Source: Tetmemena sp. SeJ-2015
Lineage: Eukaryota; Ciliophora; Spirotrichea; Sporadotrichida; Oxytrichidae
Assembly (NCBI GenBank): GCA_027382625.1
Contig: JAJKFJ010022889.1
Coordinates: forward strand, 154,033-218,032
Reading direction: 5' to 3'
Length of the DNA: 64,000 nt
This document shows positions 973 to 62,714 of this stretch, piece after piece. Positions within the stretch are counted from its first letter, which is position 1. Each line of letters begins with the position of its first letter. The notes under the pieces are model-generated. The model was not told the DNA's origin and searched no databases. It saw only the letters and a program-made list of their open reading frames with translations. The translations under genes were made by a program, and so were the position numbers.

Positions 973-3900
973 TCAAAGGTTCTTTATTAGAATGTCGTAT
1001 TGATAAAGGTCGTTGATCTTAACTGGAGAAATAAGGACGTTTAATGGAATGGGAGCTTCATCTTCTTCTTCGCTTATTACAATCTTTCGCGTATTCATTC
1101 CTTCTCTTGAATTGTCCCTTCTTAAATATATAAACGCTGATAACTTAAATAATATTTCTATATACTTTTATAGCTAACTGAGAATCGAAACTTTTATGCT
1201 GACTCGTGCTCTCCTCCTCAGATTTTTCTTCTACTCTACTAATTTTTTTCCTCAAAATCCTTTCTCTGCTCCTGGAGTTTCTTTTATTATAAGACTAAGA
1301 AGATATATTTAAATTATCTTTCAAAGCTTCTACTAACTTCTTGATTATTGCTTTGCTTAGTTTCAGCTTCTCTAGATTTTCTGGGTTGATTTTTAATAGG
1401 GGTCTTGGACAGACTTTGCTTTCTCTAATTGACTTGCTACTTGAATTTCTCTCTTCTTTCATCGTAAGTGATATTCAATCAGAAATAAGTAATTTATTAA
1501 TAAAGTGTTATCTCTTTCTAACTTCTCTTGTGTTTGCTATCAAGTAAACTCTAAATTTTTTCTTCTTTAGCTTAAATCCTTTTCTTGAGCTCTCTAGATC
1601 TTTCCTCCTCTTATTGAGTTCTCCTCTTCTGGATCAAGTTTAATTGAATAATTTAGAGGAGATCTTTCAAAAAATAAAATTCATAATTGACTGTTGTTGC
1701 ATGTCGCAATCTATGAATGAACTGATATCCTAACTAGGCATCCCAGATTTATCATGAGAAATTTCTGCTTGGAAAGTAATTAACCTAGCTCCAAGATCTC
1801 TTCCTTAACGAACCTGTCCAATTTAATTATTCAGAGAAGAAATAGTAGAAGGAGTCTGGAACTACTAAGATAGTGGTGATTTTGTAGAGGAGATGATTTC
1901 TTAATCCTGGAGACTCTGCTCTTTCGTAGATTGCTCTTTACATGAGTAAACGGGAATAGAATATGCATTTTTTTCTTAGTCAGTAACGTTCCTATTTAAA
2001 TATAAATTAGTTGTCTTCAAGTCATCCTTCACTCTTTGATCCAAATTTATCATTTTTTTAAACCTCGATATCATATAAATTTGGCCTTGTTTAGCAGTCT
2101 TAAAAAAATTGAATCTTAGGCTTGATGATTACTGTAATCTGCTGATTGATCCTTTGGGCTTTTGAGAATTTCACCACCATTACACTTTTGACTCCCCTCA
2201 TTAGCATCTCTTCTAGAACTATTTAAAAATGAATCAACCATTTAACTTAGAGGGTGCATTTTTTAGGCAGAGCGCTATTATCTGACTGGGGTTAAATTTT
2301 GTTGTATAGTTGATGTAGACAGCCTCTATCTCAAAATGCTACTAGCCTTTTAATAAGTGTTATTATTTGCCTGCTTCTTGGATGGAGTGGTAACTTAATT
2401 GCCGTTTCTCAATTCCTGTTAATTTGAGAAGGTCATTTTTTGAATTTGGACTATAGTTTCTTTGGGAGCTCTAGAGTTAGAATTGAAAGATTTAGCTTAA
2501 TTTTGTAGACCAATCTAGTTCATTTTAAACTTGAGAGAAGAAAGTTTATCTGGCGTCAATGATTTCTTCTTAAAATGGTTGCTTTCCCCTAAACTCGTTC
2601 TCTTTCTCTCTGTGTTGGCAAGGTTCATTGGAGTCTCAATTTTAAAAGGACCCACTTCTTCTTGGATTGAGTAAAAGTTCATGCTACTCTAAGGCAGAGC
2701 ATTAGAAAATTATCGCAATAAATGTTATAAGCAGGGGGTTTTGTAATAAATATGGACAGTGAAGAATTTTGTAAGCTTGCTTTGGGCAATTTACCCGCCT
2801 TGTTCATGTTTTCTTTTTCCCTCTAAGAACCATATTAAACTATTACAGATCAAATATATTTAATGCAGAACCTTCGCTTGTAATTATAACGATAATTTTA
2901 AAGAATTTATATACAACTTGCCTTCTGATTAAAGTTCTATTTGCATTTATTAGATCTCACTTGTACGTTTTCTGTTTGGAAGTATTCTTAACAGCCTGAA
3001 GATTTTTGTAACAGACACTGGCTACTAAATTTGTCTTTCTTTTTGGCACTGGAGTTAAACATGAACTATTTAATTCTAAATTTAAATTAACTATTGCAAA
3101 GCAGATCTAGTGGGGGTGTTCTAGTAGCTCGACTAATTTTTAGGAGATGTGACTCCACTCACAATTGACTTTCTCTCGTCTGTATAATTCAAGGCCTGCT
3201 CTCGAAGAGTGAAGTCCTAAGTTTTCTTGCTTGGCTAATGCTATGAAGAGAAATTCCTAGCTTGACTAATTTTTGCCTGAGGGCTCTTTTCTTTTTACTC
3301 TGGCTCTTTGATTTCTGTAGCATTAACTTCTGCATCCTTACTCTAGATCAATATAAAAGTTTATTCTAAATATAATTATCAGTCCCTCAGTCGAGGTTTA
3401 AAAATTTCTAGTAAGAGGTTTGGCCTTGAGTTTGGCATTCTCTTCTTTCAACATTTCAATTTATTGTTTCAATTATTCCATGGATTTAAGATCAATCTAT
3501 CTTTGATTTTCTAGTCTCTGATTTGATAGAGCTTGTTTATTGTTTGTATTTTCTAATTCTGCTATGAACATGTCCTGCTGTTCAATATGTTGCTGAGCCT
3601 CTATCAGCTGCTAGTCCCTTGTTTCTAATTCCTTTAACACAATTTCATACTATTCTCTGAACTAAATTATCGATTGCTAATTTAAAAAAGAACTAAGTAT
3701 CAAAGAGAATCTTTGATCAATTTTAATCCTTATCAAAGCTGATTGCGTCAAAGTACTGAGTAGTAATTTACGGCTCAAACAAAGGCGGCGACTTTAAAAC
3801 TTCATTGTTGACTTGTATTTCCTGAGCTCTTGGAATATATTAATCTTGAATATCATATCTCATATTGCTCTAGTCTTCAATTTATCCTTGATAGGTATTT

Positions 3901-4470
3901 TTGCTTTCGAATTCATCCATTTAGTTAATCATCGAATCTTCTTTCTAGCCAAGGTCCTTCAATATTTCTTTCAGCTAGTTTAGTTCTTCTAAATACCTTT
4001 AATTACTAAACTATTAATCATTCGAGCTTTGCCTTTTCTAAATTTAGATAAATAAGTTAATTCATACTTAGTTTAAATGATATGACTGTTTTGTATGAAT
4101 TACGAATTTTGCTAGGATGATATTTACTGTGATTCAAGAGGAGAAATTAAAGTCCTAGAATTTTGATTAGTTTATTCTTGTAGCATTTGCACTTATTAAC
4201 TCTGGTTGCTGAAATTTGTAAGAGCTTGCCTGCTGCTGTAGTTGTTTTCCTATAATTTTAATGATCAAATAAATAACAGTAAAATTCCTATGAACTCTTT
4301 CCTACTATTGTTTATCATATTTTCCATTTCTCACAAACCTTGATTCTAAAGAGGGAGTTCTTAGTTGACTTTAACTTGACTTAGTATGGTTTAAACTCTC
4401 TGCCTAATGTATTCTCTATTTCTCTATTGGAGGATCTAATTTTCATTATTTTCCCTTGAGGATTTACCAT
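973..4470 (-). CDS. Long coiled-coil protein, unnamed
   Basis: Reads on the minus strand from ATG at 4470 (MVNPQGKIMKIRSSNREIE) to TGA at 973-975 (C-terminus LISPVKINDLYQYDILIKNL). The middle part, about 3420-3660, is a clear heptad-rich coiled coil (QQLIEAQQHIEQQD, SMEQLKQQIEMLKEENAKLK). About 3730-4050 encodes a Gln/Asp/Asn-rich stretch including INQMDEFESKNTYQGQIEDQ, and 1030-1130 an acidic patch ISEEEDEAPI. The reading frame changes several times, so a number of IESs or introns must be removed. It is probably a structural or scaffold protein (inference from coiled coil only). TAA/TAG serve as Gln throughout. Confidence 0.6.
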
Positions 4471-4499
4471 CGTCAGAATTTGGAAATATTGTACTATTA

Positions 4500-5640
4500 A
4501 AGATAATTAGTCAGGTTATCTAATAGATAAATGAATTATTTAAATTTATTAAATAAATGACTGTTGAAGAATTCAACAAACTCTCTATGAATGATTTTTA
4601 TGACCTTTCCTAATGGGATCGCTCTCAGAATAAGCCATAAATTTTATAGTTCTTTGGAAGATTTGAAGCTTGTACTCTTTTAATATCGGTACTAAAAAGA
4701 TGTGAGATATTTTAAGAGAAAGAAGGTCTTAGTACTTACTTATTTTTTATTGAACAAGCTATAAAATTGAGAGTGTATTTGCAAATGGAAATAGTTATTT
4801 TGTTAAATTTTCCAATAAATATGCTTATCTATCATTAATTTTTATAATTCTGAACAATATTCATTTGAGATTAAGAGAGTGATTAATTCAATGCTAGCTA
4901 ACTCAGATTTATGTTCACTTATGGAAGCTACTGGTTTACAATGTTTTGCTATTTGCATGTGACGGGTGTGCTATTTAGATTTCCACAGAACGAACCTTCA
5001 TTTGCCTTAGCTTAAATTATCAACTCAATTTAATTCAAGAAAGAAAAATGATTTAAAACTCTTGGTAGATTTTTTAGTGATCTGTGAACAAACTATCCTA
5101 TGAAAAGGTTTTAGTGTTGAATCTGCTATCTTAAAATTAAACAGAGGCATAAATAATGTATATCTATCAGTGTCAAATTAAGAGTCCAAAATATTATTGG
5201 TTGCATTTTGGTGATGAGTGTTATACCCTATGCTTGAGCAATTATGTTGAGCTTGTATTATGGCTTCATTATAGCCAGAAACATTAAGTCCCTTTTCTGT
5301 TACAAAAGAGTTGTAGTTTTATCTTTCTTGACTATACATATCAAAGAAACTATGCATTTATGTGTATAGGAATGACTCTTCTCTCTTTCATTTTATCTGA
5401 CATTGGAGTTTTGCTTGATCAAAACTATATTCGGATCGATGACTCTGGAAGATTAAAAGGACTGATCTCTTTGCTTCCTATTGGGATCATTAAGACTTAG
5501 ATTGACAGGCTTTTTGGAGAATCTGAATCTCACTCTGCAATTTGTTGTTTTACTCTCTTAGAACGGCTCTATTGGATGGCTTTTTTGAGTGTTTCACCTT
5601 TCTGGCTAGTGAGTTTTCCTAGGAGGCAGTACACCTGAGT
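4500..5640. other. Ambiguous region with a 160-codon open frame
   Basis: On the plus strand a frame is open from ATG 5156 to TGA 5636-5638 under the UAR=Gln code, giving a hydrophobic 160-residue product. On the minus strand the same DNA (5370-5590) reads as a polar N/Q/S/K-rich segment (e.g. KPVNLSLNDPNRKQRDQSF), which looks more like ordinary ciliate protein. I cannot decide the strand. 4500-5060 shows no convincing coding. Confidence 0.3.
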
Positions 5641-5746
5641 GGTTTGCCATGGACAACTAGAGAACTATTAAAACTAGGTGACATCTTTCTGGAGTGATGG
5701 AGGGATGAGTAGGTCGTTGCTGTTTAGTTGGGTTGGTGCTTCATTT

Positions 5747-6660
5747 TCAAAATTTATTTCTCAAATAAACTTTAACTGACACTATTTAATCAACCATAGG
5801 AAACATAAATATGAAATAGATCTTGCATCTCTAAATGATCATCATTTCATTCTCAAGGTCTTTTGCTCTTCTCATCAGTTCTTCCTCCGCTGAACTGATC
5901 TTCTAAACTTCTCTGTCTATTCCCCCAGTGCTCTCAAACCTGTTCCCAAATTTCTAATTATAATCAGGATCCTCATCGTCTTCAAAAGCAAAGTCCTTAA
6001 ATTTCTAGTTTATTAGCTCTTCAATAAATTCAGAATTAAGAAATAAATGCTGAGTAAATAACTCAAATAATTTTATTTAAAACTCTAGAGTTGTACTTTT
6101 ATTGACTTCTAATTTGTTTTAATTTAACTTTTTATGCTATTATAAGTTCATTTATCTCTCATTTTGTTGATTTAAATGAATTTGATAGGGTGATTGGTTT
6201 TCTGATACTTAGCTATTTTCTTTATTTACAATTTCCATTAGGGTTTTTAAATCGTACCTTTGTTATAGTAAAAGCAAAATTATATATGTTGTTCGCTTGC
6301 TTAAATCTGATTGCTAGAATTGTGCGCATTCTTTCTATCTTGCATTTCATCACTTTGTGGTTGAAACTTCTAGTTGTTATTGATATGCATGATGTCCTAG
6401 TTCAATGTAGAGATAAATAAGAATAAGAGGAGTCTGATGTTGATTTAGTACCCTAAGATTATTATTTTTGTGGGAGAGCCTATTGTTTTAGCTTGGTGTT
6501 TTAGATGGTGGTCTATGATTTTATGTGGGAGTTCATTTTGAATTTAAATTTGCTTTATTATTTCTAACTAATTTGTGTATTAAGTGTGGTTGTATAAGTT
6601 AATAAGTGATAGTTACAGGAGTTCTGTTTGAGTAAATTAGAGATAGACTCGTGTAGTCAT
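5747..6660 (-). CDS. Gln/Asn-rich hypothetical protein
   Basis: Minus-strand reading from a possible ATG at 6660 is open under UAR=Gln for 170 codons to TGA near 6148, and includes a typical ciliate low-complexity stretch (MHINNNQKFQPQSDEMQDRK). After an interruption near 6115-6150, without GT-AG ends, coding resumes as LEVNKSTTLEFQIKLFELF, then an acidic segment (FAFEDDEDPDY) and a helical one (SSAEEELMRRAKDLENEMM), ending at TGA 5747-5749. The interruption is probably an IES. No family recognised. It lies between two other minus-strand genes. Confidence 0.45.
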
Positions 6661-13443: not shown

Positions 13444-14735
13444 TCAGACGCGAGGAAGAGCCTTGAGTTGAGCGAAGGTCTTCTTGGTGAAGATGGACTG
13501 AGCCAACATTCCTGAAGGGAATTCAAATATAATTTTAAGGAATGGATGGATGTCGCAGTCAGTTATCTTACACCAGATCTCCTCTCTATTGGAGCTGCTT
13601 CTAAGATAGCTCTCAGCAGCAAAGAGATCATTCACGTCGCAAAATCATCTGCTTAATCTTTTAAGAACTATTTGATATTTAAATAAGCAAGTGTTAAGGT
13701 TGAGCATGTCAAAAAGATTCAAGACTGCTTCGAAGATCCAAACTTAAAATTTGTAAATTTAAAAATGTAATGAAATTATAAAACCTCATCAGCGTACATC
13801 TCTTTAGGAAGGCAGTTAGCAGCATTAGCGATGTACTGGAGTGAGAACATGTATTGCTCTGGATTAAAAAATATTCACTATACTGTTTTTGTAGCAATTA
13901 TTTGGGATAAACTTTCTCTTCACAGCCTGGGAAGTATGTTTGGTTTTGTTGGGTGTCATTGGTATAGTTGGAGGAAAGTCCAGTGCACATATCAATGTTG
14001 TATTAGTCAATCTACTGCTCGTAGCTTTCGTAAACTTCGTAGGCCTCATAAATGGCTTCGTAATTTTCGTACCTGTCTTCGTTGTTATCGAACCTGCTTT
14101 CATAGTTGTCATACATATCCTCGTAGCTGTCATACAAGCCTTCGTAATCATCGTAGTAATAATGCGCAATGCATCATTATTCAATGAGAGAATCATCTTC
14201 GGATTAATTTGAGTAATACATGCTAGAGTTGAAGTCGTCGGAATCATTGTAGTAGCTAGGGTAAGATCCATTACCTGAGTCATAATATGGGTAATAGCTG
14301 TAGTTTGTCTACGAGGGGTAGTAATAGTTTGTGGGATCGTATGAGTTCATGTAGTTGTTGGTGGGATATGAGTTCATGTAGTTGTTGGTGGGCTGGTATG
14401 AGTTCATGTAGTTGTTTGTGGGGTCGTATGAGTTCATGTAATTGTTGGTGGGCTAGTATGAGTTCATGTAGTTGTTGGTGGGGTCGTACGATGTCATGTA
14501 GCTGTATGAGTTCATAGAGTTGCCAGTGCTCATGGGGTTGCCAGTGTTCATTGAACTGTAGGTGTTCATGGATGAGTAGCTGTTTCCCATTGAGTTGCCC
14601 ATTGAGTTTCCCATAGGAGGATAGCTATTTCCCATGCCACTTGAAGGCATTCCGTTCATGTCATTTCCATAGCTGTAAAGATTAAGATATTGATCTAAAC
14701 TTACTAGGAAGAGTAATTTTAACTATTTAAACTCC
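13444..14735 (-). CDS. Asn/Tyr/Met repeat protein with acidic-Tyr tract
   Basis: No family recognised. The N-terminal part (before an intron at about 14658-14693) reads NYSSYYGNDMNGMPSSGMGN, then short GNSM/SSMNT repeats, then about five copies of the decapeptide PTNNYMNSYD (see repeat). Next comes a strongly acidic Tyr-rich region (DSYEDMYDNYESRFDNNEDR). After a frame change near 13870, an ordered part follows (NPEQYMFSLQYIANAANCLP and KEMYADE), an intron at about 13742-13785, and the tail MLAQSIFTKKTFAQLKALPR ending at TGA 13444-13446. An interruption near 13640-13690 is unresolved. The composition (prion-like N/Y, then D/E/Y) suggests a condensate- or RNA-associated protein, which is inference. 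No start codon is visible upstream of 14735; another segment may carry it. Confidence 0.55.
14330..14517 (-). repeat. In-frame 30-bp minisatellite (PTNNYMNSY units)
   Basis: Six or so tandem units of about 30 bp, one of 27 bp, all preserving frame. The plus-strand core is atgagttcatgtagttgttg. Small unit differences (D, Q or no residue at the tenth position) show it is not a recent amplification. Confidence 0.85.
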
Positions 14736-16994: not shown

Positions 16995-17820
16995 GGGGGG
17001 GGGCCTTTCCTCGTCATCCACTTTTTTTCATGAAAATATGAATAATCACTATCTAGCCTAAAATTAGCCAAAAACACCAATTTTTTAGTCTTAATTCAAT
17101 TTCAAAAGACTTATCATGATCATATTCTTTAATTTAGAAAATTGATCTTGTTATTTTAGAATCAGTCAGACAAAAAATTTTATTTTTAAAGCTACTTTAT
17201 AGCATAAAGATTTTATTTTCTTAAATAAAAGCATATGTTTTCAATATATAAGATAATTGTTAATTTCGAAAAATATCAATCCATTAAAGACATGTATCAT
17301 GTATATATAAGATGAAATTCCGTTAAACATGCTTAAAGCTATTTAAAAGCTAAGGCTTCGATATTTAATTCTAGAATATTTTAAAAGAAATCTAGAAAAC
17401 ATTAAATTACATATTTAATCATGGAATCAAAGAACAATATCTATTTAATAAAATAAAATGACTTTCATATATTTTTTAGATAAGATTATGTTATTAGGGG
17501 ATGTAAAAAAATGAAAAGGACACGAAAGCTGTGATAAGATGGCTTAGAATACTTTTAATTATTTTACTTTAGATATCTTTAAACTTTATAATGAATTAAT
17601 ATTCTCTAGTCTTATTTCCATTCCTTTAAAATTTAATTTTTTATATATGAATATTTCTTGAAGGTTCTAAATATTTTCCCAAATTAAAGCATATGATCAT
17701 AATAAGACTTCTGAAATTGAATTAAGACTAAAAAATTGGTGTTTTTGGCTAATTTTAGGCTAGAGAGTGATTTTTCATATTTTCATGAAAAAAAGTGGAT
17801 GACGAGGAAAGGCCCCCCCC
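16995..17820. mobile_element. Inverted-repeat element with G9/C8 termini
   Basis: Terminal inverted repeats of roughly 150 bp (16995-17143 and about 17672-17820) with only a few mismatches. Each starts with a run of 8-9 G followed by CCTTTCCTCGTCATCCAC. The interior (~530 bp) is AT-rich with no usable frame. This is the structure of a non-autonomous DNA element. The target-site duplication is unclear (TA-rich flanks). Confidence 0.8.
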
Positions 17821-18975: not shown

Positions 18976-19366
18976 TAAAATGAAATAAGTGAAGTGGATC
19001 GTGGGTTGTAGAAATAAGATTAAGCTTAAATATATGTGAAAAACTATCTACAAGAAGAACATTGACAAGCTTGAAAAGAAAAGTAGGGTGTGATATATTT
19101 TAACTATTAAATGGGAAAAAGATTATGTTTTGTTTAAAATTTTAGACACCCCATTGGTTAATCATGATCTTACAAAAAAATCCAATTAAACATTAGGTTT
19201 TAATTATATCTCTAATTAATATATTAACCCCAATCAACTTTTGTTTTAATCAGAATCCTCCAATCATTAATCTCTATTAGATATAGTTCAAATCACTTCT
19301 CTAATTAAGAAATGGGTTTTCATCTTATTTCTACAACCCACGATCCACTTCACTTATTTCATTTTA
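18976..19366. mobile_element. MITE-like element, 391 bp
   Basis: 45-bp terminal inverted repeats: 18976-19020 begins TAAAATGAAATAAGTGAAGT and 19322-19366 is its near-perfect reverse complement. The interior is AT-rich and non-coding. TA dinucleotides at the ends are compatible with TA insertion. Confidence 0.8.
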
Positions 19367-21672: not shown

Positions 21673-24600
21673 TCACTATAAGAATTATTTTAGAATCTCC
21701 TCCTTATCTTGAGTTAAAAATTAAATGTAGAGTGTTCTCAGCTAGTCTTAAGGCAGCTTGAAATTTATCACTTTGGAGGGTTCTGAAATTTGCGCTAAAT
21801 ATGCTATGAGCACCCTCTCCTTAATCAAGTTTTATAGCCTCGCTCTCTCTTACTCAAGTGAGTGCATATTTACTTTAAAATTTTAAAAATTGGAAATATT
21901 CAGTTTATAAAATTAATAAACTTAACTCTAATGTTGTCTAGTTAGTTTAAGCCCAATTGAAATTTCCCTTCTAATTTCATTTTAATCATATATTATTGAG
22001 TAATTATAATGCGTAATTGGATTAAAGAATTGAAATCCGAGGGCTTCCTCAGCTGAGGGTCTCCCATTAGGGTGCTTCCCCACCAATGCGAATATCAGAT
22101 CTTATAAATTCTAAGAGTAGGCAGAGAGGTCTTTAAGAATGGTTTTGACATATAGACACCTCTTATTATTATTTAAGATTGTTTTTCTATCCTCACCACC
22201 AAAAATACAAAACAAGTTATGAAATGTTTTGAATAGGATTAAAAAATAGATTTGCCAGTTATGAGCTTGAAAATTACGGAACCCAGACTAAACAAGTCGG
22301 CCTTTAAAAAATCTAAGAATTAATAAGAATGATTAGATATACTTGCTAGTGAGATCCTTCCCTGCTAATAATTCTGGAGCGAAATAGCCTGGTGTGCCGC
22401 AGACGAGGTCATCCTCCTAATCACATTCTTTGGATTTACGATCATTTAAAATATTTAAACACTTATTAATCGGTATCCACCGCGAATCCAAAGTCAGCAA
22501 AAGTAGTAATTAATTTTCCATTTAGCATTTATAGGATGAATATGAATAGATTAGAGGTGGTAGCAGAAGGTGAAATAAACTGTCAGGGAATTGATTTGGT
22601 CCTTCTCCTATTAATTTTTAAACTTAATTTAAATAAAAATGCACTAAGAAGATGAATCAGGCATGCAGGAGTACTCTATCTTTAGCTCCTTCCTTTCACG
22701 ATCTGAATTTGGAGGTCACTACAAGCACCCGGGGGACTTCTTCAAGAAAAGAGGATACTCTATTTGAGGAAGGACGCTATTCTAATCGCTCGCAGACGAT
22801 CATGAGTTCTTTACAGACTAGGGGGGGTTTGAGAATGTAAGCGAGGAAGCTCTATCAAACTGGTACGTTGCTTTCAAAATGGTTAAGGTCAAACCTCTTA
22901 TCTACAGGGCGTTTGCTGCAGCTTTCTACATTGAGGAACTAGCCTATGACCTCAATTTCTATATCTTGCACATGGCGACAGCTGAATGCTAAAGAAGGAA
23001 GGGATACGCAAAGGCATTCTTGGCTGATGTGTAAGACTATCTGAAGTAGCAAGAGGTGGCGAACCACAGGAGTGTTGCCATAGTGTGTGGAGGAAGCGAA
23101 GATTCTTCCAGCTCACAGTTTTTTAAGTCTATGGGATTTGGCTCCAAGCTCCTCCCAAGATACCGCTGTCTTGAATAGAACAGGAGGAGAGTACTTTGTA
23201 AATACATTGGTGGATATTGTATAGACGAATTACGTTTTTGTCCCACCCCAAATCGCACCAAATTAAATGCAAACTGTGATACGATAAAAGTCTATCAAGA
23301 GTCATCCTAAGACAAGCTATGACATTGTGACCCTCATTAGAAAAGGCAAAGCACCATAAAAGGAAGTTCAGTCTCGTGTAGGTGAGGAGATTGATGGGAG
23401 TTCTATCAATTCAGAGTCTGGCGATTTGGAAGAGAAGGAGGGTGATTTGAGTAGAGGAGAGAATATGTCAAGAAGGACAAGTAGCCTCAAGAATATACGG
23501 AGACCTAGATCTAGCCCCAAGAATTTAGTTAGAGCGAAAGGAAAGGCATTGAGAAAAAGAGGAGAGCGAAATCAAGATGACCAATACAATGGGAACCAGG
23601 AGAAGTCAAGTGAGCCAGAGGGAGGCCCTGTGAGCAAATGTGGTACATTCCATAAGCATTGTCGCTACGAAGGCTGCAGCACGCTGAAGGTGATCACTGG
23701 AAACCATTGGTACAGGCATGTCAAAGAGCACTTAGAGACTGGGGTTTCTAGAGAAGAGATATCTTATGAGAGATGCAGTGGAGTTCATTGTGCTCTCTGT
23801 TCAGAGTGTGAGTGGAATTCTCTCAATGATGAACTGGGTCTAGCATGAATATGAAAGAGAACACTTTTGACATAAGTTGGTGCGATTTGGGGTGGTCATT
23901 CTATCAAAGCCACTTCATTCCAGCATGTATCAATCATTCGAGAGCATGAATCTCTGCATTCTCTTTCAAAAATTGATCTGATATATTATTTAGGGAGGGA
24001 GCAGAAGGTGAGCAGGCACGGGAAGCATAAAAAGATCAGGTTCGAGGTCTGCCACAAGGTCAAAACATCTGAGAGCTTCAGTACATAGCACACTCCATCA
24101 GTCTGCAAAGCATGCTAAAGGATAGATGATGAAAAAGGAAAGCAGAAGGCAAAGAGACCCAGACTTACAAAGTGAGGACTGAAGAGAGGAGCTGGTCGTG
24201 TGAAGAGAAATAGAATAAATAGTTGGAGACCTGTATTGAATTGTATCGCGAGGAAGGCACTAAACCAATAAATATGCAGAGTAATTGCAGATAATCATAA
24301 GTAATTAATAATTAGGGGATGCTGTCTCCACTGAATAAATCTCTTTCTAATGCTATTATAATCAATTCCCTGACAGTTTATTTCACCTTCTGCTACCACC
24401 TCTAATCTATTCATATTCATCCTATAATAGAAAAGTGAGTGAATACTAGGGCTAGAGTTGATTTATTTGGATTTTATTAGCCTACGAAACGTTCAATTCA
24501 TTTTACACATCTAGATCTTATTTTTTAGTAATGAGTATGTTATCGGGCTTAAAAAAATAAGCTTCCTCGTAATTGTACTTATATTTTTGGAAAAATATAA

Positions 24601-47700: not shown

Positions 47701-50230
47701 CCAAGTATTCCTCCTTATTGTTACAGTAATAATCTACAAAATCTATGATAAAAAACGCAATAACAAAAATGTAATGAAAAAAGACTGCACAGGATGCCTT
47801 GCTCGATTCCTCATCAGAAGCAAGAATGGGTGGCTGTAAGATATTTAAATGCTTACAATTTAGGATGAATAATTTCATCGAATTCTATAATGAGAGTTAT
47901 TTAGAGATCACTCTGTGTACCTTCCTTAATATGACATCGGTAAATTTACTTAGCATTTTTAACTTTTACTTTAGAGAACAAATTCAACTCGCTTTGAAGC
48001 TGCCTCTCTCTCCCTATCTTTTCTTTGCATTAAATTAATCTCATCAAAATATAATGATGAAAATTGATGCCTAGTTTTAGTGATAACGCTCCCTCTTATG
48101 ATTATGATATTCTATATTACCAGAACTAACAAAATCTACGAATAATAAATTCTTCCTATGTATTTTATTTTTGTAGAATTCTCATTATAAAAGAAATAGA
48201 TGAAGCACGCTCACACTTACAAGCAAATTTACTACACAGAGCCATTCTCAAGTAGAAAGCTGTAGAGAATCCAAGCTCTATTCAGCAAATATAAAGTCTT
48301 GGATACTCAAAAACTCACAGAAAATGTTATGGTTCAATTCTTCTACTACTTTAGAAGAATGGTAATTGTAGCTGGTCTGATTCTTTTGGAAGATAAATTT
48401 GCCTAGTGGTCTGTATTTTACCTTACCTGCTTGTATTTACTCATTCGAAATTACGAGTTGAGACCTTACAAAAAGTGGAAATTAAACTTCGCTCACCACT
48501 TCCACGAGGCAATCTTGATTATTATTCTATCCTTTTTGCCTTCTTTTGAATACGTAGAGGATCCCTATCAGCGTTTTATACTTGGATGGGTAGTGAATGC
48601 ACTTGTGCTTTTGGACATATTTTTCATGCTTGGTTTTGTTCTCGTTCAAAACATTCCAAAAATGATTAGATCTTGCAAGAGACGTTGCGGCAACCACTAA
48701 GGTAAGAATTCAATTGTGAAAAAGGGAGCGAAAAACACCATGGATGAGATTAATGGAGAAGTCAACAGTGTCTCGACTTTAAATGGTTTATTATATCATT
48801 AGTTTTAAATGGATTTGTTTCTAGCAACAAAAAGTAGGAAGATAAGTAAAATATTATACCTATAAAATTTGCATATATTAATTAATTTGAGATGAGTTAA
48901 TGACATTTGGTGCATCATTGACAAATAAAAAGAAGAAAGATTTGAAAAAGGCAGTTGGGCAGCAAGTGCTGGTAGATATTTCAGAGGAGAATTACAGCTT
49001 CGAGGGACTATAAACAAAGAGAAATTAGTAAAAGAAGAAATAGAATAAGCACAGCAGAGATAAGAGCTCTGACTTTAATTCTAAAAGAAGCAAGCTGAAG
49101 AATTCTAATAGGAACGCATCAGGATCATATGTCGATGGACCTCAGTCGCCTATAGAACCCGCCAGTCACTCTTTTGACACACCCAGAGAAAAGAAAAGTT
49201 AAAATGATGAAGCAGGATTGACTGATGATGATGATAGTCACAATTACATCACCAAAAGTGCAACTGCGGAGGATATTTTCAACGTAGCTACAGGAGCCAG
49301 AAATTCCATGATTTTTTAGAACTAACTTCATATTTAATCTTATTTTGTATAAATATCATAAAATAAAACTTAATGGTCCTATCTCTGGCAGAGCATAATA
49401 AAAATAATAAATCTTACAAATTCAAATTAATTAGGAAAATTTAATTTGTGAATCGCCCCATAAATAGTTTTTAATTTTAATGAATTAATTTGGAGCATTA
49501 GGTAACAGCAGATAGTTTGAGAATGCAGAAATAAGTGGTAGTAACTTTGAATACACAGGTTATCTCTCTAATCTACCTCGCTAATTACTTATTTCTTATC
49601 TTATTTAATATTTTTGTTGCTACAATAGTCAATTTGAAAATGTGAAGCCAGCAAAGTTTAATTCGTCGATCTACAGTCGATCGTCAAAATACAACAAAGG
49701 TCTCCATAAAAAGCAAAAGAGTCGTTCTAAGAACGATGTACATCCCTATGGCGCAAGCAGTATTAATGCAAGAGATAACAGTCCATTGCAGAACAGCTAA
49801 GTCCTTAAGAAACCGTCTCAAAATTTCCTTTAACTCCCTGCACCTATGACTTATCAAAAAGGATTATCTGGACCCTCAACCTTTGAAAATGACAACAAGA
49901 AGGTTAGTTTCAATGACAGCTAAGGAGAAAGCAATCGTAAAAATAATTCTTAAAATCTTATCTTTGGAGAAGAAATAGTTGGGGGCTCGTATAATTAAGA
50001 CATATCAGACAAATGCATTAAATCAATTTTTTTATTGATAAAGATAGAGTTATATTTTCTTAAAATGGGTTTATTTCTAAACTATAAATATGTTAATATT
50101 TTTTTGATCAGACAATCCTAAAATGATAAATCTTCAACTAACAGATGAAAAGTTGCTAAGTAACAACTACGATGATCTTGGCTAAGATGAATTGCAAGCA
50201 TATGACTTTGATTAACTCTAACAAAATTGA
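41770..50230 (+). CDS. Large Cys-rich surface protein with DUF4215-type repeat and membrane helices
   Basis: The likely N-terminal signal peptide is LKFYLLFFITAFWSAECC (about 41810-41870); an in-frame TGA directly after it suggests a small IES. The extracellular region contains CDLETNVLKAGFTHTFDYGQ, SWFQCEVKNSGVTS, PNFQCQIGGACFTSDTIFFP and similar lectin-like or receptor-like modules (43.4-45.8 kb). A Cys-rich furin-like stretch (CNFCDDSNDAQYCSSC, CTSCDPSCKTC) runs into CDDNNTISGDGCSADC, the signature of the myxococcal Cys-rich/DUF4215 repeat, across a 74-bp intron. Hydrophobic segments at about 47.9-48.7 kb (e.g. EAILIIILSFLPSF, ALVLLDIFFMLGFVLVQ) anchor it. A long polar cytoplasmic tail ends DLGQDELQAYDFDQLQQN at TGA 50228-50230, after an IES with a 9-bp pointer. 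Overall resembles ciliate surface receptors; ligand unknown. The exact exon/MDS structure is only partly resolved. Confidence 0.7.
42019..42077 (+). other. IES with internal perfect inverted repeat, pointer TAC
   Basis: 59-bp insert; TAC at 42019-42021 and 42078-42080. Removal joins DDCANA to YIPSLYSDVDDYKS in frame. Inside, 17-bp arms (42031-42047 and 42055-42071, ATAATTAATCTCTATTT and complement) form a hairpin with a 7-bp loop. Confidence 0.75.
46542..46615 (+). other. Intron in surface protein gene
   Basis: 74-bp GTAAGT..TTTTAG insert inside the DUF4215 motif; splicing yields ISGDG-CSADC in frame. Confidence 0.85.
50013..50115 (+). other. IES near 3' end of surface protein gene, 9-bp pointer
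   Basis: 103 bp flanked by ATCAGACAA (50004-50012 and 50107-50115). Removal joins SYNQDISD to NPKMINLQLTDEKLL, leading to the terminal TGA. The duplicate at 60.9-61.1 kb keeps the IES with a 7-bp pointer, ATCAGAC. Confidence 0.85.
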
Positions 50231-50457
50231 CCTTTTCATATGGCATTATGCTGTTCCAAGATACTTCATGAACTCTAATTAATTAATTTTTAAGAAATTA
50301 AATGATAAATCTTCCTAACGGATAAAAAGTTACTTAAAACTCGATATCTTGAAGTGAATTGCAAGGCGTATACTCTTGATTAGTTTGCAAATTGCCTTCA
50401 TAGGCATTAAGCTGCCATGTCTTCATGAACTCAATATCTTAATTTGGTTCTTTATCA

Positions 50458-51960
50458 TCAAATGATCTAGTTTTTATATAATATTATGTTGAAAAATGTT
50501 TTAATATTTGAAATATATATTGAGACTACTGATTATGAAATGATCTTATAAATCCTATTATTCTTTTAAAATTAATTGGAATATCGCCACCTACTTATTA
50601 TTTAAAATAAAACCTTCTTTTAAGAATCTTTTTCTTCTTGCAATTTATTTCTTATAATATCGTAGTTATATTTGTTTTCCTTTTTATCTCTCTTGAACTC
50701 TTTAAATTTAGAGAATAAATTAGCATCTTGAGTAAGATTTCTATTTACTTAGAAGTTAAAGAAGTGTTTATTGAATATTTTAAAATTTAACTATCAAGAA
50801 AATTCCACATGGAATGAGAACGATAAGAATTATTGGGCCTGCAAATGGTATGAGAATTATTCCTAAAATGGTTGAACCTATTCCTATTAAAATCAGAAAA
50901 GATCGACTTTTATTCTGATTTTAATATTTTTCAACTACTAAATATGTATGAGGTAATGGCAATACAAGAGCTAAAATAATTGGAAGAGCACTATGAATAT
51001 TGTAATAAACCAAATCTTTACTCCTGGATTTTAGTTTCTGGTACATCAAATCGAATTGATTAAAATCTGATGGTGCCATCTGTAAACTCTTTACAATACC
51101 AACAGAATTCAGTTTTGCATTTGTGCAAATAAAGTGATCTTTAGGATATGGATTTGGGACAGTTTTCGTAAATCGTCTCTCAAGCAGTGTTGAAAGCTAA
51201 TTGATTTTCTATAAACCTCGTTCGCAAGCTATTTATCGCAAGGTATTTTACCATGAAAAAAAGAACTACAGTTAAATCATATTTTAGTAGAACTTTTTTT
51301 GCATGAAACGCTTTAAACATTTAAAATTCTCAGTTTATCCAATTTCACCACATCCATTTCGAGGGCACTATCTTATTAGTGGATTTAGCTCTTATTTTTC
51401 TTGTTCAATAGATAGCTTCAATTGTGCCTGTCCCTCATCACTCTTTGGTAAGATATTTGATATGAACCTTTTATCATAAGTTTCTTTGCAAAAGATCTCT
51501 AAACAAGGAATTTTGAGGACATTTCCTTCTTTTATTTTTATTGACAAATTCTATAAATAGCATTTGAGATAAAATTAATGCGAGCATTTCAGCATCAATT
51601 CTGAATGAAATTTAATAAAAAAAAATATATTTGAATATAAGTTGAATTCTTTGCATATTGGACAAATTTACTAGTTCAGATGGCTGATCTCTATGTTTTG
51701 GTTATGTTGTAATTTATATGATCATCCAATATGACTGAAATTTTGGATTAATCTTCCTTAGATCTCCTCTTCTATATTATCATGTCGTTAAAAATTTGAT
51801 TAATTTATTCTCCCTCACTAATTTTATTATTCTTTAGAGAGGAAAAATATGCATTTAAAGCATGTAAAGTTAAATTTAAAGCTGCCATACTCTATTAAAT
51901 TACTCAATATCTAAATCTTAATTTGTCGTAGTTTCTTTCTACTTGTGAAGTCTTTCTAAA
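50458..51960 (-). CDS. RBR E3 ubiquitin ligase copy A'
   Basis: RBR ligases accept ubiquitin on a catalytic Cys of RING2 (Rcat). This copy matches B' (61393-62690) closely. Visible on the minus strand: degraded RING1 remnant with KIPCLEIFCKETYDKRFISN, then ELNPLIRQCPRNGCGEIG (IBR start, 51350-51430), an Rcat-like region near 51100-51160, hydrophobic C-terminal helices (50780-50930) and a basic tail FKRDKKENKYNYDIIRNKLQ. Several Cys seen in B' are altered or out of frame here, including the RING1 C-x2-C and one IBR Trp (WCP to QCP). Possibly a decaying paralogue; it converges with the surface-protein gene ending at 50230. Confidence 0.6.
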
Positions 51961-51999
51961 TAAAGTTAATATTTAACTTGGAGGTTTTGCTAAACAATA

Positions 52000-53919
52000 A
52001 ATCTCTGCATTTTCTTCGAATGAAATAGCTTCAAAAAAATAAATAGCAAGAACATAAACACAGGTATGCACACAAATAGAATTAGAGGGATTGTTATAGG
52101 GCTTATAATGATTAAGTTTTTAAGATATTAATAAAAGCATTTTAATTGATGTAAATATACTTAAATTCATTTAAAATGATGCCAAAGATAACTCCAGCAA
52201 CAACTTTTACAAAATATTCGCATTTATTAATTTCACCTCTTTGGTTTCTACTGATTCGACCTTCTGTAAGCATATAATAAACCATGAATGGAGCTTTTAT
52301 CAAAAGCACTATTGGACCAAGGAAGATTATTAAAAGTATTTTGCAAAAGATTGAATCCCAAAAGGTCGTTTCGGCCATCAAAGTCCCTGGGCACCCGATA
52401 ATAAGATTCATGTGCCCGAATGAGGAGAAGTCTTTTCCCCATCTCTTGAAAATTGCAAATGACAAAACATGCAAGTAATTTAAGCTCCTTCGAAAGGCTC
52501 AGACCTCACTTTACAGATAGGAAAAGGATATCTCCCTCCACTTTAGTAATTAGAGAATCTCCTATCTAAATCCTGTTCACAATTTCTTCCACGATGATCT
52601 TTCTCGCCACATTAAAAGCAGAATTAAGTGCTGAAATCTCAGCATACCCCTTAATAATCTCTTAAATCTAAAGCTCTGGCGAAACCGTTGCACCCTTAAT
52701 TAGGGCATTATTTAATAAAGGGATCGTTTCCAAGAATTTATTGTTGATTCATCTTTAAATAGTACTAGAACTAGGTTTCATCATTACTTTATTCGAGGAT
52801 TTATTTTATAAAGAAGCTTGAATAAGTCTCTTAGCACTTTAAGTTCATGCATTTTATATATCTAAATTTCCCAAGTCAAATTAACTTTTTATCTGATTGT
52901 AGTGGCACCCAGAGCAAAACGTATCCGCACAATTAGGAAGTGAAATCTAATAAAATCCAATAGGATAAAAATTTATCTATTTAGAGGATAATTATAGGCA
53001 TACTTAGCAGATTAAAGTTAATTTTCTTATAAATTGTATGCAACAACAAAAAATGAAACCGCGGAAATAAACTAGGAAAATAAAAACTAATCTTCTTCGA
53101 GCTAATTTTTAAGAATAAAAATCTATAACTCGTTATCTTAGTTTGACCTGTGGTAGTTTACTATATTTACTATTTCTATGTAATTTAAATGGCTTTATAA
53201 TCTCTATTAGATAAGCTTTGAAAGGAGCTATTAGTCTTCTCTCTTAGAGTGGAATATCTCGCTTATATTTTATTATTGTATATTACCGCTATTTTCATTT
53301 TCTCTTTGATCTAAAGTTGATGAGTTTGCATGTTTTTCCATAGCTTCATCGCATAAATAACAGGCTTAAAATCCTCAATCTTTAAAATAATGGTTTATAT
53401 TTCCTTCCTCGTCAGTTATAAATACAAATATATAATAACAAATTAACAACAACTCCTCTTTATTTCAGTTTTTTAAGTCTTTAATTTATAAATTATTTAT
53501 AAATAACCAATAATTGTACTCCACAACATATAAAAACTAAAACTACTATGGAATTAGATAAATTGAAAGTCAGATACTTTAGAAATGAAAACAGTAATTA
53601 TTCATTTTCGACATTTTCTTTAAATTAAAAGTAGATTTACCAATTAGCATGAATTTGAAATGATAAAAGGTATTAGATGATTTCTTGAACTGAAATATTA
53701 GTCTTGGGATGCAGCATACTCCACAATATCTTAATCAAATCCCATCATCACATTCTTTTTAATAGCATTATCATATTAAGGTGGGAATTATGCCTCCAAT
53801 AATTTCCTGATGTTATTATTTTCAATCCCTAATATTTATGGGTTCTCTTCTGCCGAAATAAAATCTCTATTTTGAAATTTTAAAAGCTAATTTTTCCTGA
53901 GAGTATCAAAAAGAAGCAT
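52000..53919 (-). pseudogene. RBR E3 ligase copy A with UBA domain, frameshifted
   Basis: ATG 53919 gives MLLFDTLRKNQLLKFQNRDF, then a UBA-like domain (NVMMGFDQDIVEYAASQD). A Cys/His motif follows (CYLCDEAMEKHAN, 53290-53390), then RING1 (LICQVCLQ … LPNCADTFCSGCHYN, 52870-53010), IBR and RING2 remnants, and a membrane segment (ILLIIFLGPIVLLIKAPF, 52260-52320). Compared with copy B it has a 2-base loss after RING1, an in-frame TGA in IBR where B has Arg (C-TGA-D versus CRD), and a 1-base loss in RING2 that turns FCKRCGKDY into a shifted RWGKDF. These lesions make it a likely pseudogene, unless some are assembly errors. Confidence 0.7.
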
Positions 53920-54795: not shown

Positions 54796-55482
54796 GGGAG
54801 GAAGAAATAGTGATCACCAGTTACCAAAATTGGAATTCAAGAGCGTCAGCTCTGTTGTGTCAGGGTGTTCTCCTTTAAAGTGGTTAAGAATAGAGCATTT
54901 TATATTAATGAATTATTCAAATGTAATTGATGGACGAATGATGGTTTACGATTAGATGGCTTCACCTTCTCCCCTGTTCTCACTCCACTTTACTCTACCT
55001 CCCCTCTCACCTTCGCGCCTATTTCCGGCTGTGCCTCTCTCTCCCCAACTCATAACCTCCTACTCTCTCTTCCTCCTCCCTCCACATCCTCCCTCCTCCT
55101 TGCTGCTCGTATCTCTCACTTATCTCAGAGGAGGTCTTCTTTACATTTCCAAGGTGAGAGCAATACAAAGTCGAGAAATTATGAGCCTCTGGCTCTCAGC
55201 TAAGGAAGAGAGGGAGGAGGTTATGAGTTGGGGAGAGAGAGGCACAGCCGGAAATAGGTGCGAAGGTGAGAGGGGAGGTAGAGTAAAGTGGAGTGAGAAC
55301 AGGGGAGAAGGTGAAGCCATCTAATCGTAAACCATCATTCGTCCATCAATTACATTTGAATAATTCATTAATATAAAATGCTCTATTCTTAACCACTTTA
55401 AAGGAGAACACCCTGACACAACAGAGCTGACGCTCTTGAATTCCAATTTTGGTAACTGGTGATCACCTATTTCTATCCTCCC
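54796..55482. mobile_element. 687-bp foldback palindrome, GC-rich arms
   Basis: Two near-perfect inverted arms of about 279 bp (54796-55074 and 55204-55482) around a ~130-bp spacer. Outer ends read GGGAGGAAGAAATAG / CTATTTCTATCCTCCC. The inner half of each arm is a polypyrimidine/polypurine tract (e.g. ccttctcccctgttctcact), unlike the AT-rich surroundings. An apparent frame at 54956-55324 merely reads through the palindrome. Any transcript would fold into a long hairpin. It lies between RBR copies A and C. Confidence 0.9.
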
Positions 55483-58869: not shown

Positions 58870-59335
58870 GATTTCACTATTTTTCAAAATTAAAATTTAC
58901 TCACAAAGAAAAAGAATTTTCTGACTATTGATTATATGATTGTCATATGGTTACCTAATATCTGAATTAAGAAATGTTTCTTGCAAAGAATTGATTCTCT
59001 ATTTCAAAGCATGTAGTTAAAGAATTTTAAGATAGGAAGAATATTAAGTTCTCTAACTTCTTCTTTATTCTCGATTTTGTGAAGATTTAAAAAATAGAGA
59101 ATAATAATTCATACTGATTCATTTACTGAGGAAAGATTACATAAAAGTTTTTTTCTTTTTAAATTTTTATTTTGGGACGAAAATAAGCTTTTTAAAAAAG
59201 GGAAAAAAAAAAAAGGGTATAAAAACCCAAAAATTGATAAGAAAGTGAAAATAAGTTTTTATAATTAATTTTTTTTAAAATTACTTATAAATGGGAAAAA
59301 AAAATTTTTCAAAAAATTAATTCCAATATTTTTAT
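58870..59335. other. AT-rich spacer with homopolymer tracts
   Basis: No gene. 59140-59330 carries stretched A and T runs similar to those in 56041-56883, raising the same quality concern. Confidence 0.35.
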
Positions 59336-59339
59336 TTAC

Positions 59340-60244
59340 TTTAAAGTAGGGATGTGTCACCCTTTATCAGTAGTATAGCCATTCTCAACATAACTCCATC
59401 GCAAAAAGTTGAGATGCCAGCGCGCACTATACTCTCGCATTTAAAGTTGTTTTGCAGATGAGAAAGTTAGGTTTTCAGCTTTTCCCTCATCGCACTTCTA
59501 ATTTTCGCACACAATTATTTGATTGATCCTCAAACTCTTCCCACTAACCACTTTATTTTTGGAGTGCGCGGAAGATCTTCCATAATAGTTTTCCTTGTCT
59601 CAAGATCTCTCCGTAACGTAGCAAATTATCTTTTTAAAGGGCATAAACGTACAAAACGTGAATCGAGGAACGCGTTATAGACTTCACAAAGGGCCATTTT
59701 AAAATACCTTTAAAATATTTACGACTAGCTGCTCAGGGGTGTGAGAGGGATAGCGTGAAGTTTGTATGTGCTGACGAACTGTGTTCACACACAACCCCTT
59801 TATGAAGAAGAATTGTACAAGAAGCACGAAACATAGAAGTTTACGATAGAAAATAAATATAACTACAAGTGCTTACTTGCAGAATCAGCGAAGCTCGGGC
59901 TTAGAAGCTTATGTCCTTCATCCTGCTCTATCAAGCGAGAGAGTATGTTGCGTTCCTTAAAAAGCTCGGGGAAAATCACAGACGGGGAGACGTTCTACTC
60001 GTTGACAACCTCACGTACAAAACAAAAGGAACGAAAAAGGCTACCTGAGTTTTAAAACATCCTGTTTTTAAGTTCCATATCGCCAGAGTTCAACGGGGGA
60101 ATTTTACGGCTTAGTTAAGGGACATTATAAAAAGCTGCTGCTCTATCACTTAGCATGATTAACTATCATACAGAGGATTTTAAAAGTGAGTGTTTTAAGA
60201 AGTGGAAGAAGAGAAAACAAAGTTTTGTGCAATAAGGGAGATGA
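59340..60244 (+). pseudogene. Degenerate ORF, possible transposon gene
   Basis: One plus-strand frame runs from about 59343 to TGA 60242-60244, interrupted by only two in-frame TGAs (near 59461 and 59751). Segments include SSIAILNITPSQKVEMPART, FGVRGRSSIIVFLVSRSLRN and TIENKYNYKCLLAESAKLGL, with a basic C-terminus SECFKKWKKRKQSFVQQGR. It is GC-richer than its surroundings. The final 160 codons are intact. I do not recognise the family. Its convergent partner at 60285-60835 and location at a duplication boundary suggest a mobile-element remnant (inference). Confidence 0.5.
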
Positions 60245-60284
60245 AAATTAAAGGAAAATATTTAAGCTTAACTTAATGACTTAA

Positions 60285-60835
60285 TCACTTTTGCTTTTTT
60301 GGAAGAGGATTCTTAAGAGGTTCCTTTTTCTCTTCTGTGTGGCCTGATGGGCCCAGCTTCCTCTCTTCAACCGCTCCCGCATCTATGAGCATCTCGTCGT
60401 CCCTAAGTTTGAAAAGTGATAAACCCTTTCTCACCTCGATGCTTGTATTTTGTTTCCCGTGCTCTGAATACCTTTGCTCTCTCCTTCATTAAGTAGATGC
60501 CAGTGCCAGGTTTCTCTACACAGTTAAACTCTAAACTTACTAGAGAAGAGGGATACTTCTGAAGCTGCTCAAACCATTCGTCGCTGATAACTATTCCTTG
60601 CTTCTTTGGGTCGCTCTCCTCTACTTAGAATCTTTCCTGTGTGCATCTTCAATGATCTCTTGAGGTACTCTGCACGTACAGTAGCAAGACGCCAAAGAAA
60701 ACCTTCTTTTCTGGAAACTTGTTTGAGTTGTTCCTTTTTAGGAGGAAATAGAGCAACCTCCGGATTTCCCATCGCATCGTCATACATATTAGTGACTGAG
60801 ATCTCAGGATAGTTTGGGATCTCCATCATGTTCAC
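60285..60835 (-). CDS. About 20-22 kDa basic ORF, possible transposon gene
   Basis: Starts MNMMEIPNYPEISVTNMYDD at 60835, continues through LKQVSRKEGFLWRLATVRAE, then shifts frame near 60610 into GIVISDEWFEQLQKYPSSLV and YLMKERAKVFRARETKYKHR. After a second junction near 60390-60430 it ends HTEEKKEPLKNPLPKKQK at TGA 60285-60287. Total about 185 residues, basic. TBE transposons of Oxytricha encode a 22-kDa protein of unknown function, and size and context are suggestive, but I cannot confirm homology. It begins exactly where the segmental duplication begins. Confidence 0.45.
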
Positions 60836-60844
60836 ATCGATTAT

Positions 60845-61173
60845 TTTGATTCAATGACACCTAAGAATAACCCAATCATTAAAATAATTCTTAAAATCTT
60901 ATCTTGGAGAAGAAATAGTTTGAGGCTGGTATAATTAAGACATATCAGACGAAATACATTAAATCAATTTTTTTATTGATAAATTCTGAGTTATCTTTTC
61001 TTTAAAAATGGGATTATTTCTAAACTATAAATATTTTATTATTTTTTTAATCAGACAATCCCAACATGATAAATCTTCAACGAACAGATAAAAAGCAGCT
61101 AAGTGACAACTACGATGACCTTGGCTAAGATGAATTGTAAGCATATGACTACGATTAGGTGTAACAAAGTTGA
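60845..61173 (+). pseudogene. Duplicated 3' end of the surface-protein gene
   Basis: Matches 49905-50230, including the last IES (pointer ATCAGAC, 60953-60959 and about 61052-61058) and the terminal exon (DLGQDELQAYDYDQVQQS, TGA 61171-61173). One T is missing in the run before GGAGAAG, which shifts the frame relative to the parent. Only the 3' end is present, so this is a non-functional fragment carried by the duplication. Confidence 0.75.
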
Positions 61174-61392
61174 CCTTTCGAGTGCTGTTCCAAGATACAT
61201 CATGAACTCAATATCTTAACTTTGATTCTTTATCATCAAATAATCTAATTTATATAATATCATGTTGAAAAAATCTTTTAATATTTGAAATATATATTGA
61301 GCTAATTTTAGAAACCTTAGATTACAAAATGATCTTATAAATCCTTTTCTTCATTTAATTTCAATGGGATATCACCATCTACTTCTTAGTCA

Positions 61393-62690: not shown

Positions 62691-62714
62691 AAGCTTTCAT
62701 ATCTGCTACGTTAC

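Follow-up and report, generated by a model that had tools for sequence, protein, structure and literature searches.

What kind of element carries an acetyltransferase gene, with no recognisable transposase, inside an interrupted kinase gene, and what the acetyltransferase does for that element, are the questions raised by a 1.9-kb stretch of DNA from the ciliate Tetmemena sp. SeJ-2015. All positions given here refer to the window, the whole 64,000-nt stretch of contig JAJKFJ010022889.1 that was analysed, and the genome-wide searches covered 146 Mb in 5213 contigs. Judged from its sequence features, the element can with moderate confidence be regarded as one decayed copy of a dispersed family of DNA transposons with terminal inverted repeats (TIRs), apparently in a germline assembly.

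The element, its gene and the interrupted kinase

The element lies between two segments of a kinase gene on the opposite strand, as follows:

22530..24426, plus strand: whole element, TATAG...CTATA, counted with the TA that flanks it at either end (ends common to other copies)
22529..22596, plus strand: left TIR, 68 nt, 100% complementary to the right arm
24360..24427, minus strand: right TIR, 68 nt, 100% complementary to the left arm
24536..24550, minus strand: segment KPDNI of the kinase, on the upstream side of the interruption (read from sequence)
22460..22528, minus strand: segment MLNGKLITTFADFGFAVDTD of the kinase, on the downstream side of the interruption (read from sequence; kinase confirmed on the neighbouring frames)

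An earlier sequence-only reading had described 66-bp inverted repeats around 1.9 kb of GC-richer DNA without a transposase. The composition was borne out, with a GC content of 0.416 in the element vs 0.273 and 0.247 in the adjoining 5 kb on each side, and the inverted repeats are present, although they are 68 nt long rather than 66. Neither a DDE transposase nor a tyrosine recombinase was matched in the main frames of the element that were scanned, in agreement with that reading.

The kinase on the minus strand is real and is encoded in pieces, with Pkinase matches (E up to 0.019) in four of four minus-strand frames, one of them above the cut-off. HRDIK and PDNI are separated by approximately 130 bp with no GT-AG borders, and the interruption from KPDNI to MLNGKL, in which the element had correctly been placed, spans approximately 2.0 kb (22529–24535) and consists of the element and 109 bp more. 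The two interruptions would fit IESs of a micronuclear gene; none of the pointer choices tried gave an unambiguous in-frame join of the kinase pieces. The flanks of the element occur once genome-wide, and no empty allele of the site was found in the assembly.

The gene of the element was translated under ciliate code 6, with TAA and TAG read as Q, and consists of the following parts:

22639..22767, plus strand: N-terminal piece of exon 1 (MHQEDESGMQEYS...), closed by a TGA in frame (ORF list; resembles the uninterrupted N-terminus of subfamily 2)
22768..23319, plus strand: exon 1, GNAT domain piece, a 184-aa frame with QRRKGYA and FFKSMGF (ORF, translations, Pfam)
23288..23818, plus strand: exon 1, second frame, with the linker and the first Cys/His cluster (KCGTFHKHCRYEGC...NHWYRHVKEH...CSGVHCALC) (tblastn with the protein of copy L015)
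23808..23993, plus strand: predicted intron, GTGAGT...TTTAG (donor and acceptor pattern across copies)
23994..24175, plus strand: exon 2, with the zinc ribbon (C..C...C..C), the basic tail KAKRPRLTK, and a closing TGA (ORF, translations, intron pattern)

The encoded protein begins with an N-terminal region and a GNAT domain, followed by a linker that evolves fast, then a Cys/His cluster, and finally a zinc ribbon, to which a lysine-rich basic tail is attached. The GNAT core and the two Cys/His clusters with their basic tail were thus read correctly from the start, and the predicted intron separates the first cluster from the zinc ribbon. Its donor and acceptor were recovered by pattern in 13 of the 15 copies tried (L006 has the donor only and L004 neither), and a GTAAGT donor stands at the corresponding place in the divergent copies L083, L085, and L086; in L083, the open frame also continues through the predicted intron. 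The window gene is broken by one in-frame TGA, which the window-like copies L001–L003 also carry, and by one frameshift, after which the second-frame piece (23288..23818) begins; exon 1 is taken to end at 23807. A reading of TGA as a sense codon was rejected, because nine of the ten best rows of the protein search have no TGA in frame; TGA therefore counts as a stop, and the window copy is regarded as broken.

Motif A of GNAT acetyltransferases has the form R/Q-x-x-G-x-G/A. The GNAT motif residues, including R134 and G137, are invariant in an alignment of ten family members, and three GNAT models of Pfam (Acetyltransf_1, Acetyltransf_7, and Acetyltransf_10) match all ten of them at E up to 0.1, with 2.1e-5 as the best value. 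By motif A and the Pfam match, the protein belongs to the GNAT superfamily, with scores near the cut-offs: for Acetyltransf_1 (20.7 bits), L086 lies above (23.1), L002 at the cut-off (20.7), and L015 and L083 below it. NCBIfam gave weak matches only, and a PDB profile search returned nothing at E up to 0.1. An AlphaFold2 model of the GNAT piece alone, built from the single sequence without an alignment, shows a GNAT-like order of strands and helices and is too weak to use (pLDDT 39.5). The protein is like the Gcn5-related acetyltransferases in motif A, the segment ending in MGF, and its matches to the three Pfam models, and unlike them in its fusion to Cys/His modules, its encoding within a TIR element, and its weak scores.

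Searches for homologues beyond the Tetmemena genome found none at E of 0.01 or less, whether with one family protein (5398 candidates) or with the ten-member alignment (best 8000 candidates), and viral contigs held no relatives of the GNAT protein or of the SF3 protein introduced below. This lack of outside homologues is weak evidence, because the collections may hold few ciliate proteins in the right code.

Several further repeats were noted in the window: tandem repeats of 30 bp (14297–14508), two more TIR-like pairs (16996–17820 and 18976–19366; 146 bp at 95% and 48 bp at 98%), a perfect 252-bp inverted repeat with a 153-bp spacer (54810–55466), and an approximately 3-kb direct repeat (49904–53098 and 60845–63890) whose copies lie 10.8–10.9 kb apart, with pieces at 73%–93% identity. 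There is also a partial TBE (59222–60849), 80% identical over 1.8 kb to a TBE in locus L070. At 1987–6218 of that locus, a copy of the GNAT element has been split by a TBE-like insert of 4.2 kb, which has a CAAAACCCCAAAACCCC end and an ACT target duplication.

Copies, selection, and ends of the family

A search with the element DNA, which scored the best 40 of 99 candidates, returned 89 matches genome-wide. Many are second repeat arms or fragments, and together they amount to about 39 places (38 loci and one short); several are full length at 72%–95% identity, and others go down to approximately 66%. Two family-protein queries returned 112 and 102 matches (best 97 of 391 and best 84 of 446 candidates), at identities to the L015 query from 97% down to 30%. 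With second and further fragments of one place dropped or merged, the protein matches give 113 places in the assembly, a figure that is neither a strict lower nor a strict upper count of true loci, because some contigs look duplicated and only part of the candidates was scored. Uninterrupted frames of 429–443 amino acids were found in seven of the 37 translated copies (L011, L012, L015, L016, L018, L020, and L052), among which L052 has a short in-frame deletion and an aligned part 14 amino acids shorter than that of L015; the other 30 have no full-length open frame and are broken, partial, or too diverged. The expectation that the gene would recur at scattered places, with the GNAT frame intact in several copies and with ends in common, has therefore held. 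C4A4 repeats occur at 67 sites in the assembly and, like the TBEs, are in keeping with a spirotrich genome; none of the 113 places lies on the 11 contigs that start with such a repeat, which is a weak hint that the elements would be removed from the macronucleus.

Between subfamilies (L002 vs L012, 346 codons after the TGA), dN/dS is 0.27 (dN 0.194, dS 0.724), and by part it is 0.13 in the GNAT domain, 0.79 in the linker, and 0.14 in the zinc cluster; the N-terminal part gives 0.07 over 47 codons, an imprecise value given a dS of 1.6. Closer pairs within subfamilies range from 0.19 to 0.42. Third codon positions hold 40 of the 62 differences in the GNAT part (p = 5e-7) and 36 of the 115 in the linker, and exon 2 shows a weak third-position excess (9, 15, and 21 differences by codon position). 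The coding region is under purifying selection, and its GNAT and zinc parts did something that selection keeps.

Two inverted minisatellite arrays lie on either side of the linker and zinc segment:

23243..23277, plus strand: internal minisatellite unit (CCACCCCAAATCGCACC), within exon 1 (inverted-repeat search)
23861..23895, minus strand: internal minisatellite unit, inverted, within the intron (inverted-repeat search)

The unit is also written CCCCAAATCGCACC. Both orientations are present in 34 of 41 copies, with the forward one first in all 34, and across these copies the number of units in one arm rises and falls with that in the other (rho 0.86; the copies are related and so not independent). 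Between clades, including L083, L084, L085, and L086, the minisatellite sequence differs while the arms stay complementary and the layout is kept. A nested element as the source of the internal repeats was rejected, since the units stand at matching places in divergent copies. Nor is there any sign of an invertible middle segment among 23 of 38 copies, those whose alignment runs unbroken across almost the full element. One RNA fold of the region was unremarkable (z -0.86); the minisatellites may work by pairing in RNA or may serve as sites for binding.

The ends of the element read TATAGGATG.../TATAGATAGG..., and their outermost 20 bp come in two sub-types, type 1 and type 2, found at 275 and 128 sites with at most one mismatch, vs 1 and 0 sites for a reversed control pattern. 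Among the 200 ends listed of these 403, a GNAT match lies inward of 42 and outward of one, and an SF3 match inward of 13 and outward of none. The same 200 listed ends give 38 inward-facing pairs, 17 with a GNAT match, four with an SF3-type match (one of them, the L082 pair, added by hand), and 17 with neither, and 110 of the 124 unpaired ends among them have neither gene inward. GNAT elements occur with both sub-types: the window copy has type-1 ends, its relatives L003 and L005, 92%–95% identical to it, bear type-2 ends, and L085, whose GNAT gene is approximately 43%–45% identical to that of L015, has a 65-bp TIR of type 2. One further GNAT element, L020 on contig C1016, combines one end of type 1 with one of type 2, which suggests an exchange between end sub-types.

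The more divergent GNAT genes L083, L084, and L086 are bounded by a second end class, TATTGAGAAAATCAGTGA, found at 229 sites vs three for the control. Among the 100 ends listed of these 229, a GNAT match lies inward of 27 and outward of none, and 14 of the 24 pairs that they form hold a GNAT gene when both queries are used (10 with the first query alone); set against 135 SF3 places, the same 100 ends have no SF3 match inward and two outward. The GNAT gene is thus associated with both end classes, and SF3 with the first only among the ends listed. No DDE_3 match (best 150 of 921 candidates) was found up to 2.8 kb inward of the 200 type-1 and type-2 ends and the 100 second-class ends listed.

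An empty site could be compared for the second class: L086 lies within a TBE end, L070 has that TBE in uninterrupted form, and the comparison reveals a 2-bp TA duplication. No empty site was found for the end class of the window, the TBE around L020 matching on its left side only; the ends of that class read TATAG in most copies compared, consistent with TA, the TA duplication itself being seen in the second class only. These sites also bear on the notion that an ordinary host gene family was amplified by segmental duplication, its inverted repeats being chance or secondary. Some copies do share flanks (L014 with L017), and some contigs look duplicated (e.g., C2694 and C3794), so that duplication or double assembly occurs. 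Yet among 25 elements whose flanks were compared, two share a whole flank with another copy (L014/L017 and L072/L076) while the ends coincide, an empty site carries a TA duplication, and the flanks of the window copy are found once. This explanation is largely refuted by the dispersed ends and is very improbable.

SF3-ATPase elements and possible routes of mobilisation

The candidate partner of the GNAT elements is a group of elements that encode an SF3-type ATPase. In two of them, L081 and L082, the TIRs measure 420 and 247 bp and have 27–29 identical outer bases in common, including the type-2 20-mer; against the type-1 end of the window, L082 matches 41 bp at 83% and L081 nothing. Their proteins are homologous (22% identity over 213 positions, E 4e-10). 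For PF19263 (DUF5906), with a cut-off of 27.6 bits, L082 passes (35.1) and the L081 frame falls below (22.6); the likeness of L082 to SF3-helicase-like proteins is a feature of the partner element only and not of the GNAT element. L082 also contains GQPNRGKSTL, which we take to be a Walker A motif. The L081 protein has at least 129 matches genome-wide (best 127 of 295 candidates), and homologues of the SF3 protein beyond the Tetmemena genome were not found at E of 0.01 or less (692 candidates, among which ciliates are possibly under-represented).

Two side observations concern other elements of this end class. L080 is a diverged relative of L082, and elements of approximately 1.13 kb among L072–L079 have 33–40 bp at 90%–97% in common with the window end; the L081 protein has no match to these 1.13-kb elements at E up to 1.

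The SF3 matches that were found lie behind ends of type 2, and the ends of the window copy are of type 1; the SF3 elements are nevertheless linked to the window class, because GNAT copies 92%–95% identical to the window bear type-2 ends. They cannot be the partner everywhere, since no SF3 match lies inward of the 100 ends listed in the second class. It has been considered that the family is a multipartite transposon, in which separate elements with common ends, one kind encoding the SF3-type ATPase and the other the acetyltransferase-zinc-finger protein, would each supply part of the mobilisation machinery, acetylation being required for movement or for escape from silencing in the germline. 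The confinement of SF3 matches to one end sub-type slightly weakens this arrangement, which is unlikely.

The GNAT gene could also be a passenger mobilised in trans, as the sequence-only reading had offered beside the idea that the enzyme might modify germline chromatin around the elimination of its own element. A gene captured by a non-autonomous element would be moved by the SF3 machinery without itself taking part in the movement, and selection would act through a benefit to the host during conjugation. The part about movement in trans gains a candidate partner, since the type-2 20-mer end is common to the SF3 elements and no transposase was matched in the frames scanned or inward of the ends listed. 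In Oxytricha, some genes confined to the germline are known to be transcribed during development, according to the available text of PMC8495736. The purifying selection on the coding region makes a pure passenger without a role less likely. The GNAT gene is, moreover, the cargo of 14 of the 24 pairs listed in the second end class, which has no SF3 inward, and its retention with the element across such divergence would be less expected of a captured gene. The passenger explanation as a whole is doubtful, if somewhat less so than the multipartite one.

A third possibility makes the GNAT-zinc-finger protein the sole mobilisation protein encoded by the element, with the chemistry performed by host or domesticated transposases (e.g., of TBE type) or by an unrecognised N-terminal nuclease. 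Its gene is found with both end classes, and selection constrains its N-terminal stretch no less than the GNAT part (dN/dS 0.07 over the 47 codons compared). However, the domain-model searches matched no nuclease family in the family proteins, and the ends and target of TBEs (CA4C4A4C4 and ANT in the available text of PMC4724952) differ from the ends of the element and its probable TA target. This route also seems improbable, about as much so as the multipartite transposon.

The explanation preferred here, at a confidence that is moderate at best, is that of a real transposon family whose GNAT-zinc-finger protein would serve as a mobilisation or chromatin factor. The elements would express this protein, which would enter the nucleus by means of its basic tail; the zinc modules would bind element DNA or chromatin, and the GNAT part would acetylate histones or a mobilisation protein. 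Acetylation may then open germline chromatin or license transposition, with the strands cut in trans by another protein, for which the product of the SF3-ATPase elements is the best candidate in the end class of the window. The window copy would have landed at a TA on the edge of the kinase interruption and would presumably be removed with it during macronuclear development.

Relation to known ciliate elements and significance

TAYAG is the consensus of ciliate IES and Tc1/mariner ends. The element resembles these in its probable TA target and its TATAG-like ends and differs from Tc1/mariner elements in that no DDE transposase or tyrosine recombinase was matched in the element frames scanned, nor a DDE transposase inward of the ends listed. 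The resemblance of ciliate IES ends to Tc1/mariner ends is itself described in PMC4724952. With MITEs and other non-autonomous elements of ciliate germlines (e.g., Blepharisma), the family has in common the lack of a transposase and ends common to other elements; unlike MITEs, which have no conserved coding capacity, the GNAT element carries a conserved protein gene under purifying selection (dN/dS 0.27 overall and 0.13 in the GNAT part).

TBEs offer a close comparison, and the statements on them made here follow the available text of PMC4724952. They carry CA4C4A4C4 in their TIRs and an ANT target duplication, and, besides the transposase, they have accessory genes under purifying selection, with dN/dS of 0.1–0.3, among them a 57-kD ORF that combines zinc fingers with a second domain, a kinase. 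Both TBEs and the present family are germline TIR elements of hypotrich or spirotrich ciliates with a selected non-transposase gene that includes zinc fingers. TBEs have C4A4 ends, ANT, a DDE transposase, and three ORFs, whereas the element has TATAG ends, a probable TA target, and one GNAT gene; its ends (TATAGGATG.../TATAGATAGG...) thus separate it from TBEs. Because TBEs carry a zinc-finger/kinase protein, there is a precedent in kind for ciliate transposons that join an enzyme to zinc fingers. A ciliate transposon that encodes a GNAT protein was not found described in the literature searched, which covers the field incompletely.

It is normally the nuclease that defines a eukaryotic DNA transposon, and here selection keeps a GNAT-zinc-finger gene, in two end classes, in a family that points to SF3-ATPase elements as a possible partner. 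In the host cell, chromatin marks and small RNAs help to decide what is deleted, and if the protein acts on chromatin, it would be a transposon-encoded tool against silencing.
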